From positions 124,001-188,000 of the forward strand of contig CAJNOJ010000086.1 of the NCBI GenBank assembly GCA_905250025.1: a stretch of DNA of 64,000 bases. The letters are read 5' to 3'. Origin of the DNA: Adineta ricciae (lineage: Eukaryota > Rotifera > Eurotatoria > Adinetida > Adinetidae). The notes below the pieces were generated by a model. That model was not told the DNA's origin, did not search any database, and saw nothing but the letters and a program-made list of their open reading frames with translations. The first letter of the stretch is position 1, and every line of letters begins with the position of its first letter. Of this stretch, positions 51,479-57,192 are shown piece after piece. The translations under genes and the position numbers were made by a program.

Positions 51479-52144
51479 AAGAAAACACTCATCGTACTCA
51501 TTTTTGCTTCATACATTCTTGTATTTGATTAATTAAACTCACATATTTTTTTCTCTTCTCTTTCGCTTATTCATTTAATAAAACTTTGATTCATACTCAT
51601 TTTTGCAAGCTATTTCTGTTCATACGGAGAAAATTGCTTCGCAACCAAATGAGAAGGGCAAATCAAAGTCAAACTCATTCATTCCAGTCTACAATTAGAA
51701 CTGTACTTTCTACCCTACCCTACCCTTCAATATCATAAATACCGGCTGCAAAAAAACTCCTGTATTCATTTACTATTCAACTGTGCATAGATTTCATAAA
51801 AAAATATATTGATTTTACCATACATACTATCTCGAAAAGCAATAGATGTGCTATTTATAGATTGTATCTAAACACAGTTGTCAATACATTTAAAATTCAT
51901 TTTTATTTCCTTTTCAACCATTGATTTATTGCCTCATTGAAGGATCTATACATAGACCGATCCAACCCGAGTATATTAGAAGTCTGACAGATTTATAACT
52001 GAAAATATTTATTATGTGGTAATTAAATATGAACACATTTTAAAATGACAGTTGATTGTTAGACGCGCACTTGGTACGAAGCAGATCAAGCCGACAGGAA
52101 GTACAATGATTATTGATCGAAGGAAACATCTTCTGTTGAGTTGA
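51479..52144. other. Intergenic region, no gene seen
   Basis: This 666 bp AT-rich spacer between two plus-strand genes contains AATAAA at 51577 and a short duplicated CTACC word near 51710-51725. Nothing else was seen. Confidence 0.5.
51577..51582 (+). terminator. Probable polyadenylation signal of the mucin/EGF gene
   Basis: AATAAA about 100 nt after the stop codon. Confidence 0.45.
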
Positions 52145-53059
52145 ATGAAGATGCTTCCTGAACTTTTTTACATTATCAATTTTTCTATTTCAATTTCGGC
52201 TGCGATCATTGCGTTAACGACTGCTTTCCTAATTCTAATCACCGTCATTTGTATTCGTTCCTGCCGTACAATTCCCAATCTTCTCATTTGTAACACATCA
52301 GTAGCAACAATACTCTACTATTTACTCAATCTCGTCTCGATTTTCTATGCACTTCAAAACGATTGGGAACAGCATCAACCTGGTTGCGTTTTTCGTGCGT
52401 ATAGTTACACTGCTCTATGTGCTGCTCTTTGTTATTCATATTCGATCCACGCCATAAGTCGTCTACTCTTCACTGTTTTCTACACACATAAATCTCTTCA
52501 AACATGGTTTATTCATTGGATGATGATTATCATCAGTTGGTCAATTAGCATTCTCACACCAACGATACCATTATTTTTCCAGCATGGATATCAATTAGAA
52601 AACGAGTCTCGTATTTGCTTGCCGACAGTGAAAATCTTCTCGACTGCGATATGTTCAGTACTGATTGCTTTTATTATTCCTCTGAATATCGTAGCAAGTG
52701 TCTATAGTAGTATCTTCTTTTATGCATGGAAGTCAACATATCGAATTCGAAGTTTGAATTCTCATGCAACGAATCTGATGATTTCAAGTCACACTCGATT
52801 ACTTAAAGTGAAACGTGAAATAAAACTAATGCAGAAGATTCTAGTGCTAATCTGTCTTGTTCTTTTCGGTGGTACACCTTATTTCATTCTCGTTTTATGG
52901 CATGTTTTGTTGGAAGAATCTCCACCGGAACCATTCTATTTATTAAGCACGAATTGTATAGCCATTTTTATATCACTAAAAATGATCACGTTATTTTGTA
53001 TGTGCAAACAAATAAAAACGAATGTGTTGCATTATCTATTAAAATTGCAACGATATTAA
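52145..53059 (+). CDS. Orphan rhodopsin-like 7TM receptor, intronless
   Basis: Single exon, 304 aa, with seven hydrophobic segments starting at residue about 8 (INFSISISAAIIALTTAFLI). TM2 begins RTIPNLLICNTSVATILYYL. A Cys before TM3 (PGCVFRAYSYTALC) and one in outer loop 2 (SRICLPTV) can form the class A disulphide. TM3 ends HAISRLLFTVFY, so the DRY box is replaced by SRL. TM6 is KILVLICLVLFGGTPYFILV, with Thr-Pro where Trp-x-Pro is usual. TM7 lacks NPxxY (CIAIFISLKMITLFCMC). Short loops and degenerate motifs suggest a lineage-specific chemosensory-type receptor (inference). An AATAAA near 53353 could end the transcript. Confidence 0.78.
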   Translation: MKMLPELFYIINFSISISAAIIALTTAFLILITVICIRSCRTIPNLLICNTSVATILYYLLNLVSIFYALQNDWEQHQPGCVFRAYSYTALCAALCYSYSIHAISRLLFTVFYTHKSLQTWFIHWMMIIISWSISILTPTIPLFFQHGYQLENESRICLPTVKIFSTAICSVLIAFIIPLNIVASVYSSIFFYAWKSTYRIRSLNSHATNLMISSHTRLLKVKREIKLMQKILVLICLVLFGGTPYFILVLWHVLLEESPPEPFYLLSTNCIAIFISLKMITLFCMCKQIKTNVLHYLLKLQRY

Positions 53060-53601
53060 TCGCATGAAAATGTGTTTGTTTTCCTTGAGCAAAGAAAAGA
53101 ATGCCTCACGAATTTCTTTGGTAGAGTCAACCAATGACAGCATTTTCTTCGTAATCGAATCATGAATGTATTTCATAAACGATAAGAAATGAAAAACGAA
53201 ACTCAATTGAATCAATTCAATGAATCATATAAGACATTTTTATCAAGAAGAACTCGTCGATTCTCTGTCGTGCTGTTCGCTTGAGTATTCATATAAAACG
53301 TACATTACTTACATAGTAATTACATTCATACAATAATCTTTCGTTCTATCATAAATAAAGGAGTAAAAAAAACATATCAACATTGATTTCTTCGATATTT
53401 TTCCTTTCTTCATTTATGTTTTTGTATTCTACACTTGTTTGAAGAGAAATCTAATGTGTGTAATATTTTCTTCCATTCTTTTTCGACTGCGTCATCTTTT
53501 CATTGAAGTGCTTGATATAAAAAGAAAAGCTTTTTTTTTGTGGTAAGTATCAAATTTTGATGGTAAATATCTATCTATCGTCGGTCAAACATCATTTGAT
53601 T
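53060..53601. other. Intergenic region, no gene seen
   Basis: About 540 bp of AT-rich sequence between the 7TM gene and the MITE. It holds an ATAAATAAAG near 53350 and a poly-T run near 53532. No coding frame is supported. Confidence 0.5.
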
Positions 53602-53609
53602 GGATAAAC
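53602..53609. repeat. Target-site duplication, left copy
   Basis: GGATAAAC immediately left of the MITE; the identical octamer follows its right end. Eight bp is the duplication length made by hAT transposases. Confidence 0.85.
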
Positions 53610-53738
53610 TAGGGATGTACCGAGACCGAGATTCTCGGGCTTGGTCTGTCTTGGTCTTGGGTGAGATCTCGGTCGAAATCTCGTAGTCTCGCCGAGACAC
53701 CGAGCTTCTCGTTCATCCAAATTTTAGTCACCATACCA

Positions 53739-53753
53739 CTGTTGAGTTTAAAA
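53739..53753. repeat. Internal inverted repeat of the MITE, left arm
   Basis: CTGTTGAGTTTAAAA; its exact reverse complement is at 53888-53902. The arms could form a hairpin with a loop of about 134 nt. Confidence 0.85.
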
Positions 53754-53887
53754 GGAGCTGATTTATAAATGTTTATAATTGCTACACTTTAGTAACGCTA
53801 TTTTGCCTGAAAAAGTGTTTATAAATGATAAATAAACACAGATTTGTTAGTTTTTCGTAAATAGATAATAAATCCTTGCGAATGCTA

Positions 53888-53902
53888 TTTTAAACTCAAC
53901 AG
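53888..53902. repeat. Internal inverted repeat of the MITE, right arm
   Basis: TTTTAAACTCAACAG, the exact reverse complement of 53739-53753. Confidence 0.85.
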
Positions 53903-54010
53903 CGCACCATACGTGAAAAGTTCTAAATTTAATTTTGCACACAGTTGACATTTTTGGAGACCGACTTCATTAAGACCAAGATCTCGCCCGAGACTCTCGG
54001 TACATCCCTA

Positions 54011-54018
54011 GGATAAAC
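54011..54018. repeat. Target-site duplication, right copy
   Basis: GGATAAAC directly after the right end of the MITE, identical to the left copy, which suggests a fairly recent insertion. Confidence 0.85.
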
Positions 54019-54080
54019 GAATATCTAGAACCGTCTTTTTTTTCTATCGAGATTGTATTTTCATCATAAGATCAAACCTT

Positions 54081-55454
54081 ATGGCTTCCGTTGTAACACC
54101 CGAGAAAGAATACGAAGTTTCACCATTTCAAGGATATACAGAACAACCTCTGGTTTCTTTGAAAGAAGCAGTTGAACCATTGTGTGCTGCAGTTCGCGAC
54201 ATCGATAAAATGCTAAGACGTGTCCAACAACAGTGTTCGGAAATACAAGACGATTTGTCGGCTGATGAATTAGGATCGATTTTGCTTTACACATTAGCAT
54301 GGGAAAAACCGCAGTCTTCGTTTCGTTCCATTCTGAATCGTACAATTCGTTCGCTAGTTCAAGAAAGTCTACGTCCTTGGTTTCTTTATCTTCGTTTGTT
54401 TATCAATGCACTTTCGAAATTGCCATCGATCCCATTTCATACAGTTTATCGTGGGTCAACGGAGAATTTGCTTGATGATTACTCGGACGGTGAGCGAATC
54501 ATCTGGTGGAATTTTGTTTCATGTAAAGCTTCACTCAAACTAGTGAAAGAATCGTGCAGTGAAGATGATCTTCGAACAATTTTAATTATCGAGTGCGACA
54601 TGGCGAAAGACATAAGTAAATATTCGGAAAAAGAGAACGAAATTTTACTTTATCCAGCGCGGCAATTTCAAGTTATCTCGACATTACAATCGAACGATCG
54701 ACTTCGTCTTATTCAATTATGTGAAATACAATCACAACGTCCACTTATCGAAATCGCGAGCGTCATTGTCAATGAGCAACCAAAATTACTACCTTCGAAA
54801 AGTCGCTTAGAATATTTAATTAATCAATATCCTGGACAAGATCAAATCACCTTAATCAAACAAAAAGTTACTGATGCTGATATGCCTATGATTGTAAAAG
54901 ATGCGATCAAGAAGAAGAAATGTCGAGCATTACTACTCTCAGAAAATTCTATCACAGCAGCTGGCCTATTGGTTCTCAATACAGAATTAAAAACGAACAA
55001 GTCACTAGAATTTCTTAGTCTTTCATGCAATCGCCTCTGTGATAAAGGCGTCATATCCTTAGCAAATGTATTAGCTGCTAATGTTAGTCGTATTACTGCA
55101 CTTAGTCTACACTCGACTAATATTACAGATAAAAGTGTGCAACATCTCTGTGATATGTTGGAAATAAATAAATGTCTAACTTGGCTTCATCTCGGTATGA
55201 ATAAGATTAGTAATGAAGGTGTGAAACTTATAGCGAACACATTGGCTCATCGTAATAAGACTCTAGAAGCATTGGATCTATCAAAGAACGCCGCGATCGA
55301 TGATTCATGTATTGATTTTCTTGAAGAAATGTTCAAGAATGAAATTACCTTGAACACATTGTGGATTCATCATTGTAAATTAACTCCAGACGGAAACAAC
55401 AGACTACATAAAATTGTTAGATCATGTAGACGCTTTTTTATTCTCACAGTGTAG
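54081..55454 (+). CDS. Mono-ADP-ribosyltransferase (ART) fused to leucine-rich repeats
   Basis: Intronless, 457 aa, no signal peptide or membrane helix, so probably cytosolic. Residues about 60-200 show the R-S-E-x-E arrangement of arginine-type ARTs: Arg124 in FHTVYRGST, Ser147 in IIWWNFVSCKAS, and Glu185-x-Glu187 in YSEKENEILLYPARQFQVIS. These residues bind NAD and catalyse transfer of ADP-ribose in the family (established knowledge). Residues about 270-455 are LRRs of the ribonuclease-inhibitor/NLRC type (ALLLSENSITAAGLLVL; LEFLSLSCNRLCDKGVISLA; LTWLHLGMNKISNEGVKLIA; LEALDLSKNAAIDDSCIDFL). The LRR may recruit a target or sense a ligand (inference). The hAT-like MITE ends 70 bp upstream of the ATG. 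Confidence 0.85.
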   Translation: MASVVTPEKEYEVSPFQGYTEQPLVSLKEAVEPLCAAVRDIDKMLRRVQQQCSEIQDDLSADELGSILLYTLAWEKPQSSFRSILNRTIRSLVQESLRPWFLYLRLFINALSKLPSIPFHTVYRGSTENLLDDYSDGERIIWWNFVSCKASLKLVKESCSEDDLRTILIIECDMAKDISKYSEKENEILLYPARQFQVISTLQSNDRLRLIQLCEIQSQRPLIEIASVIVNEQPKLLPSKSRLEYLINQYPGQDQITLIKQKVTDADMPMIVKDAIKKKKCRALLLSENSITAAGLLVLNTELKTNKSLEFLSLSCNRLCDKGVISLANVLAANVSRITALSLHSTNITDKSVQHLCDMLEINKCLTWLHLGMNKISNEGVKLIANTLAHRNKTLEALDLSKNAAIDDSCIDFLEEMFKNEITLNTLWIHHCKLTPDGNNRLHKIVRSCRRFFILTV

Positions 55455-55547
55455 CGAACAATCGATCGACTCTACTATGTGCGCAAAAAAAATTATTTTT
55501 TAATATACGTTATAAACCCAGAGGAAAAAAGTGTACTCGACTGACAG

Positions 55548-56999
55548 TTAATACAGTGCACAAAGCGCATGTCCTTTGTCAAAGGCAGTATTTCCTTCGA
55601 AGAGCATAGTTTTATCGTATGTTGAAACAATCTGTAAGGCATACACATATGTTGCATAAACTGATGCTAACGAGTAAGATATATAGGTATTCCAATTTGA
55701 TTGATTATTTGGAAAAACATTATTCACATAGGTGGAATTACCCAGTGACGTTTGTATGTTAACCCACAGACGATATGTTGAATATATTTGAGCAATAACG
55801 GTCACATCCGACGCAAAGATCGGACTGATCAATTGCCAACCTATTCCAATACACGCCATTTGACTCGCTGAATACGTCATTAATGACGAATTCATCAGTC
55901 GTGTACAAACCCATTGAGATGAATACTGGATCAGAATATAACCTGCGGATTCGCAAGGAAGACATTCATTTGAAGTTGAAGACCAAAACCATAGAGGAAT
56001 CTTACAAGCGCAAGCACCATCTATGAAGTATCAAACTAAGTCGATTGGGTTATGTAGAGATGCTTTAAACTTACTAATACAGACGAGATGCAATGCTTGT
56101 GGACATTGACTGTCGCTAGTACAGTTACCGTTATAGGTTCCTTGGCTAGTACACGATGATGTGCCGTTTACACCAGATGCTATCACCCATGTTTGTCCTT
56201 GATAACAATCACATGTGTATAATTTCGATTGTTGAGGACAATCACATGAAGGATATGGACCAGGTAGACGGCAGAAAAGTCCAGCTTGCGTGTTGCAACT
56301 AGAGTTTTGTTCACAATAGCTACCATATGTTGAGACTGGTTCGCATCGAGTAGACGACCAATATGTGCCAGATGGGCAAAGACATACGAGTGTGCCTGGA
56401 TCACATACAAGATCAAGTTGTATATTGCATGGCAATGTACCTGACAATGTACATGAAGCACCAAATAATTTATAAGCTATCAATACTCGTATGTTAGAAT
56501 ATGATTATTAGATTTTGAGTGACTTACTGGTACAACCAGATGTTGTATGGTAAGTATTCGAAGGACACTGACAAGTTCCATTTGTGTAACAGATTAAACC
56601 TTTGTTCGTTGCACATTCATCATTTCTCGAACATATCGCATTGATACTTTTAACAGTTGAACACTTTTTAGAGCTATAATCCCAATAGTTTTCCTCAGCA
56701 CACAGACAAATCAATGCTGTTGAACTGCATATTAAACCAGCACTCGATGAACACTGTCCTTTTCCACTAGAACACGATTCTAGGTAAGATGCTGTTTGAC
56801 GAAGTCGAACAAGTCCGGCTATGAGCCAAGCAACCGCTAACGTAAGAAAAATGATGACAAAAAATGAAATAATGAATCGTCGAGGATGTGTTGAATGTTC
56901 GTAGTGAAAGAATGTATACAAGCGTTTCGAACGTGATCGTTCAGTGATTCGTTTCGTTTCATTCCATTGAGTTAGAAATGGTATATTCGCCGATGTCAT
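55548..56999 (-). CDS. Cys-rich type II membrane protein with EB-like modules
   Basis: Three main exons, starting at 56999, spliced by short GT-AG introns near 56472-56528 and 56022-56066. The N-terminus is cytosolic and basic (KRITERSRSKRLYTFFHYEH), then one TM helix (FIISFFVIIFLTLAVAWLIA). Outside follow repeated modules of the form C-x-x-x-x-x-C-x(5-7)-G-L-x-C-x-x-x-x-x-x-C-x-C, e.g. CSSSAGLICSSTALICLC, CATNKGLICYTNGTCQC and CNTQAGLFCRLPGPYPSCDC, resembling invertebrate EB/dickkopf-type modules. The last about 150 residues are Cys-poor and rich in Tyr, Ser and Asn (MNSSLMTYSASQMACIGIGW; NVFPNNQSNWNTYISYSLAS). They contain W and G positions reminiscent of a lectin-like fold, but I cannot assign it. 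Function unknown; a surface receptor or matrix protein is likely. Confidence 0.75.
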
Positions 57000-57192
57000 G
57001 AGTGAAATTTTTAATCAAATGAGAAAAAATACAAGGTTTCTCTTTGTTTTGTATTGTCGCAATGTAAATAAGTTCACTTTTCCAGTGCAGTTTATGTTGA
57101 TACTAAGCAATTGATTTTATTATTATTGGAATGAAAGAAAAATTACTATCAAAAAGCTAAGAATTAAAATTGACTGAAGAAAAAAAACATAT

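Follow-up and report, generated by a model that had tools for sequence, protein, structure and literature searches.

Transposons of the hAT superfamily, as far as the consulted part of the work on Tgf2 describes them (PMC4890040), are bounded by TIRs, flanked by 8-bp TSDs and equipped at either end with subterminal repeats, to which the BED zinc finger of the transposase binds. The PF05699 domain is located at the C-terminus of hAT transposases, according to the sections consulted of a study on hAT MITEs in viruses and their hosts (PMC6004678). In the portion considered here, the report on Mar of Drosophila (PMC3517528) presents a hAT MITE as a short, non-coding element with TIRs and 8-bp TSDs, the ends of which are common to hAT transposase-coding DNA.

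In this study, we analysed a 401-bp element in a 64,000-nucleotide stretch of Adineta ricciae DNA, hereafter called the window. It is very probably a composite non-autonomous transposon, consisting of an outer hAT-type MITE and an inserted unrelated MITE, that was later moved in trans. In plants, nested MITEs are known in which one MITE is located within another and is flanked by its own TSD; in contrast to these, the composite itself is found here at two sites with different TSDs. The element is short, non-coding and bounded by TIRs, but its copies are neither numerous nor of uniform length. The term MITE is therefore used for its structure and not for its abundance, because the low copy number is unlike that of typical MITEs.

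The likeness to the cited systems is considerable, within the parts of these sources that were consulted. With Mar, the element has in common its shortness, lack of coding sequence, TIRs, 8-bp TSDs and, apparently, ends shared with hAT transposase-coding DNA, but it differs by its low copy number and by the second, nested MITE that is carried along (PMC3517528). With Tgf2, it shares the combination of TIRs, two-ended subterminal repeats and an 8-bp TSD, and the candidate partner on contig C623 contains a BED and a hAT dimerisation domain; in contrast to Tgf2, the repeat motif is CCGAG/CCGAGA, its binding by the BED domain is a prediction and no complete autonomous copy was found (PMC4890040). 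The hAT MITEs of viruses and hosts likewise have TIRs in common, 8-bp TSDs, a putative autonomous partner with PF05699 and paralogous empty sites, whereas the empty site observed here is that of the inner element and is located within another MITE (PMC6004678). The outer MITE family is not described in the consulted part of a survey of bdelloid DNA transposons (PMC7943196), and none of the titles and beginnings of abstracts listed for bdelloid transposons, rotifer hAT elements and MITEs, and nested or composite MITEs describes it.

Structure and surroundings of the element

The outer element spans window positions 53610-54010 (401 bp). Its parts and the adjacent gene are listed below, with the strand where one applies and the basis in brackets.

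53602..53609, no strand: left TSD of the outer element, GGATAAAC (sequence, inverted-repeat scan)
53610..53625, plus strand: left TIR, TAGGGATGTACCGAGA (inverted-repeat scan)
53626..53728, plus strand: left subterminal region of the outer MITE, containing CCGAG/CTCGG motifs (motif count; alignment to C147 and C486)
53729..53736, no strand: left TSD of the inner element, CACCATAC (present once in the empty-site paralogue C294:59133-59283)
53737..53904, plus strand: inner 168-bp MITE, ends CRCTGTTGAGTTTAAAA, paired at 16/17 positions (further copies at C311 and C100 lack the outer ends)
53905..53912, no strand: right TSD of the inner element, CACCATAC (sequence)
53913..53994, plus strand: right part of the outer MITE; its CCGAG array is shorter than that of the C147 copy (alignment)
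53995..54010, minus strand: right TIR of the outer element (inverted-repeat scan)
54011..54018, no strand: right TSD, GGATAAAC; a TAG at 54009-54011 is in frame with the gene downstream (sequence)
54081..55454, plus strand: neighbouring ORF of 457 amino acids, outside the element (Pfam ART and LRR_6)

A scan for inverted repeats with arms of at least 9 bp, a spacing of up to 3 kb and a perfect 8-bp flanking duplication returned the outer element alone in the 64-kb window, and none in each of 20 simulated first-order Markov sequences. The TIRs pair at 16/16 positions and the two flanking copies of GGATAAAC are identical at 8/8, which bears out the perfect 16-bp TIRs and 8-bp TSD claimed by an initial annotation of the window. 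Its claim of subterminal CCGAG motifs agrees with the count as well: CCGAG or CTCGG occurs six times on the left (53610-53736), twice on the right (53905-54010) and not at all in between (53737-53904), with 36 occurrences in the whole window. The element lacks coding capacity, as no listed ORF of at least 80 amino acids is contained in 53610-54010. When folded as single-stranded DNA, it reaches -69.1 kcal/mol, compared to a mean of -36.1 kcal/mol for shuffled sequences (z -8.0), and none of 100 shuffles folds as well; such a strong fold is expected given the nested inverted repeats. The G+C content of the window is 0.35-0.37.

The element is indeed located 70 bp upstream of an ART-LRR gene, as had been noted before, with 54011-54080 (70 nt) separating it from the ATG at 54081. 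The ORF scores 25.1 bits for Pfam ART (cut-off 22.3) and 42.2 bits for LRR_6 (cut-off 23.4). At the junction (54009-54011), the final two bases of the element together with the initial base of the TSD make up an in-frame TAG, and the element is therefore outside the ART-LRR reading frame. A literature search returned no paper on bdelloid ART-LRR genes.

This arrangement raises the possibility that the ART-LRR gene acquired an altered promoter or transcription start through the insertion, which would have been retained for this effect. Such a reading is favoured by the short distance to the ATG and by the gene itself, which by sequence comparison is without a close paralogue: the genome search lists 99 ART-like matches, one of which is the gene, and the second in score shows 40% identity over the whole length, whereas matches restricted to the ART part reach up to 48%. 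A different short element with related ends, on C253, also precedes an ART match (C253:48019), by about 2.5 kb, a proximity that was noticed post hoc and may be due to chance. In contrast, for the other copies of the family, none of the listed ART matches is found on C486, C294, C311, C100 or C623, and on C147 about 141 kb separate the nearest one from the element. Trans-splicing may furthermore cut the upstream sequence from the mRNA. A pyrimidine run at 54034-54045, followed by an AG at 54050-54051, is present between the element and the ATG (identified by eye) and would fit trans-splicing of the ART-LRR gene; according to the consulted part of an earlier report (PMC1925144), trans-splicing affects more than half of the transcripts in bdelloids. 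A retained promoter effect is improbable. A scan for bacterial promoters and terminators is uninformative for an animal gene.

The upstream neighbour of the element is a GPCR gene (Pfam 7tm_1), and the interval 51500-57100 contains this gene, the MITE, the ART-LRR gene and an EB-like gene, the EB match of which is below the Pfam cut-off. Further downstream, an Exo70-like exon scores 23.2 bits, just below the Pfam cut-off of 23.9, and its nearest relative, with 75% amino acid identity, is located on C4. The region C4:911400-919400 is colinear with the window on both sides of the interval (about 57.1-59.8 kb and 49.9-51.5 kb), and identity and gene order suggest that it is a probable homeologue. 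None of the window ORFs of at least 45 amino acids from 51.5-57.1 kb matched C4:911400-919400 at E 1e-4; the interval is missing from this region, and consequently no empty outer site is readable there. GGATAAAC, looked for on either strand, occurs twice in the region (L079:410 and L079:2469), but both occurrences are inside the Exo70-side alignment and not at the corresponding place.

Copies of the composite and the nested inner element

The genome searched comprises 130.46 Mb in 1033 contigs. The smallest contig seen has 10,150 bases; short contigs may be absent and copies on them missed, and all copy counts are lower bounds. The 401-bp element is not a single-copy sequence, and relatives of both the element and its TIRs were detected. 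At least five outer copies are present; the following five, of 151-488 bp, were compared by alignment:

C86 (window element): 401 bp, inner element present, TSD GGATAAAC 8/8
C147:246906-247393: 488 bp, inner element present, TSD GTTCTCGC 8/8
C486:40678-40962: 285 bp, without inner element, TSD 6/8 by eye
C294:59133-59283: 151 bp, without inner element, TSD 7/8
C294:32716-32919: 204 bp, without inner element, TSD GTTGTTCA 8/8

The two C294 copies are 26.4 kb apart on one contig and have common flanks (90% over 3.0 kb). They therefore count as one insertion, and the three copies without the inner element represent two insertions. Many matches to genes and elements occur as equally oriented pairs on a single contig, about 12-84 kb apart (C182, C205, C162, C377 and also C294), which may reflect true duplication or alleles joined in the assembly. 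A 7-kb query around the element matched only itself and relatives of the element in this assembly, and hence yielded no second allele.

The composites on C86 and C147 agree to the base in the insertion point of the inner element, and in both it has the same orientation with respect to the outer element. The flanks of the C147 copy, about 1-1.5 kb on each side, gave no blastn match to the C86 flanks at E 0.01. The shared insertion point, the different but perfect TSDs and the non-aligning flanks most likely indicate that the composite transposed as a unit after nesting. The alternative is that no joint move took place: either there were two separate insertions of the inner element, or segmental duplication or gene conversion produced the second copy. 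In its favour, only two composites are known, and the inner TSD on C147 is preserved at 7/8 positions; against it stand the identical insertion base and orientation, the different outer TSDs (GGATAAAC and GTTCTCGC), each 8/8, and the flanks of about 1-1.5 kb that do not align. We consider it quite improbable.

In aligned columns, the two composites are identical at 215/225 positions of the outer element, 161/168 of the inner element and 381/401 overall. This corresponds to a difference of 4-5%, besides gaps that are mostly in the CCGAG arrays, which are longer in the C147 copy than in the C86 copy. The genome search gave 89% identity over query positions 6-380, a figure that is presumably lower because gaps are counted. 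The initial annotation had taken the perfect TIRs and TSD as a sign of recent movement. These ends are real and lean in that direction, but their 24 identical paired positions (16 TIR, 8 TSD) bound the pairwise divergence at less than about 12% at 95%, and the composites differ by 4-5%. Thus, perfect ends alone do not demonstrate recent movement.

The second, 15-bp internal inverted repeat and the nested architecture proposed in the initial annotation are also real, and the repeat is part of a distinct element of 168 bp (53737-53904), which has a TSD of its own, CACCATAC, identical at 8/8 positions. The C294:59133 copy reads TTTTAGTCACCATACGTCAAAAG, i.e., the left flank, one CACCATAC and the right flank, and is a paralogous empty site for the inner element. 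In addition, the inner element is found without outer ends on C311 and C100. The C100 copy is flanked by the near-duplication ATACGAAT/ATAAGAAT (7/8) and the C311 copy by one of 6/8 (counted by eye). These loci can be aligned with each other in two stretches, of 1.9 and 1.2 kb, at about 84%, and therefore look like one old insertion with decayed duplications.

It is highly improbable that the 401-bp element is a single MITE with the internal inverted repeat as its own and the inner-less copies as internal deletions, even though internal deletion is a common origin of short elements and the segment occupies the same place in both composites, because an exact 8-bp duplication encloses the segment in the window, one paralogue contains this 8-mer exactly once, two further outer copies lack the segment, and it occurs without outer ends on C311 and C100.

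The 16-mer end of the inner element has 28 sites with up to one mismatch, compared to 12 for the reversed pattern. One such one-mismatch end (C407:44047-44062, minus strand) is located 93 nt before a plus-strand hAT dimerisation domain (C407:44155). Its orientation is that of a right end, which is the wrong way round for the left end of that gene's own element, and the match is probably due to chance. The inner element has TIRs and an 8-bp TSD and may belong to hAT, but 8-bp duplications can also be produced by other superfamilies, and no clear link of its ends to a transposase was found.

Related ends beside hAT genes and a candidate partner

The core 14-mer of the outer TIR has 31 sites in the genome with up to one mismatch, 24 of them with one mismatch. 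The reversed pattern has 14, and some, possibly a good part, of the one-mismatch sites are thus chance matches. A longer 22-mer of the end is more specific, with 11 matches versus none for the reversed control. The genome contains at least 144 matches to the hAT dimerisation domain, and 5/31 TIR-core sites (on C623, C513, C548, C574 and C819) follow the 3' end of one of these domains at a distance of 252-677 nt and are directed inwards. The expected number is 0.03 if the sites are spread evenly, which is untrue of transposons. Together with the TSD, the TIRs and the subterminal motifs, these end cores near hAT domains support the earlier proposal of a hAT-type MITE, and the assignment of the outer element to hAT appears well supported on sequence grounds.

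The closest candidate partner is on C623, where an exact 16-mer of the right TIR and a CCGAGA array are found 677 nt beyond the PF05699 domain. Two of the five gene pieces scanned at this locus matched Pfam, one as zf-BED and one as Dimer_Tnp_hAT. A left end was not found there by the criteria used (28600 to the contig end, 7.8 kb read), and the genome search revealed no autonomous copy that is complete with both ends. C635, C446, C220 and C391 show single ends, with no clear partner in the pieces examined. Upstream of the C623 transposase gene (L078, last third), stretches with repeated units like GGATTCGCCTATAGGTTAGACCAA were observed by eye.

Among the loci compared, the domains closest to that of C623 are those of the four other loci with a TIR core. 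In the genome-wide ranking against the C623 domain, C548 is 12th, C819 14th, C513 16th and C574 40th among 66 matches. Six other top-ranking relatives, sampled over 701 nt at the 3' side, carry the core with two (C1032, C134), three (C466), four (C375), five (C516) or six (C576) mismatches, and among the 30 best-scoring hAT loci the core was present with two mismatches in L050 and with at least four in 29/30. As C375, C516 and C576 are not above background and the TIR-bearing loci rank low, the end type appears to be enriched beside related hAT genes without being the mark of one tight clade.

Two further short elements have related ends. The one on C253 (C253:45329-45489; L018:1501-1661) measures 161 bp and is flanked by a TSD of GGAGGCGT (8/8). 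The one on C241 (L017:1257-1514) measures 258 bp, has a TSD of GTTAATAG/GTTAATAA (7/8) and contains CCGAAT/CCGAAC repeats in place of CCGAGA.

Proposed history and implications

The preferred explanation, a composite that was moved in trans, can be described as a series of events. An outer hAT-type MITE, 225 bp long when counted without the insert and one copy of the duplication, would have been entered by a second, unrelated 168-bp MITE at CACCATAC. A hAT transposase would then have mobilised the composite in trans by recognising TAGGSATGYACCGA-type ends and CCGAG-type subterminal repeats, so that it landed at GGATAAAC in the window and at GTTCTCGC on C147. The transposase responsible and the order and age of these events are inferred, and the element is presumably dispensable for the adjacent ART-LRR gene. 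A more far-reaching proposal, namely that the composite is now a mobile unit in an apparently asexual lineage, with arrays that expand and contract (401 versus 488 bp) and with one copy placed to set transcription or trans-splicing of the ART-LRR gene, is unlikely.

The nested, low-copy hAT-type MITE is genuine and ordinary in kind; a putative effect on the ART-LRR gene would matter only if transcript data revealed it. The order of events is readable from the sequence, from the outer element via the inner insertion to the movement of the composite, and the empty site proves the nesting. The composite can thus serve as a marker of the activity of DNA transposons in a bdelloid genome.
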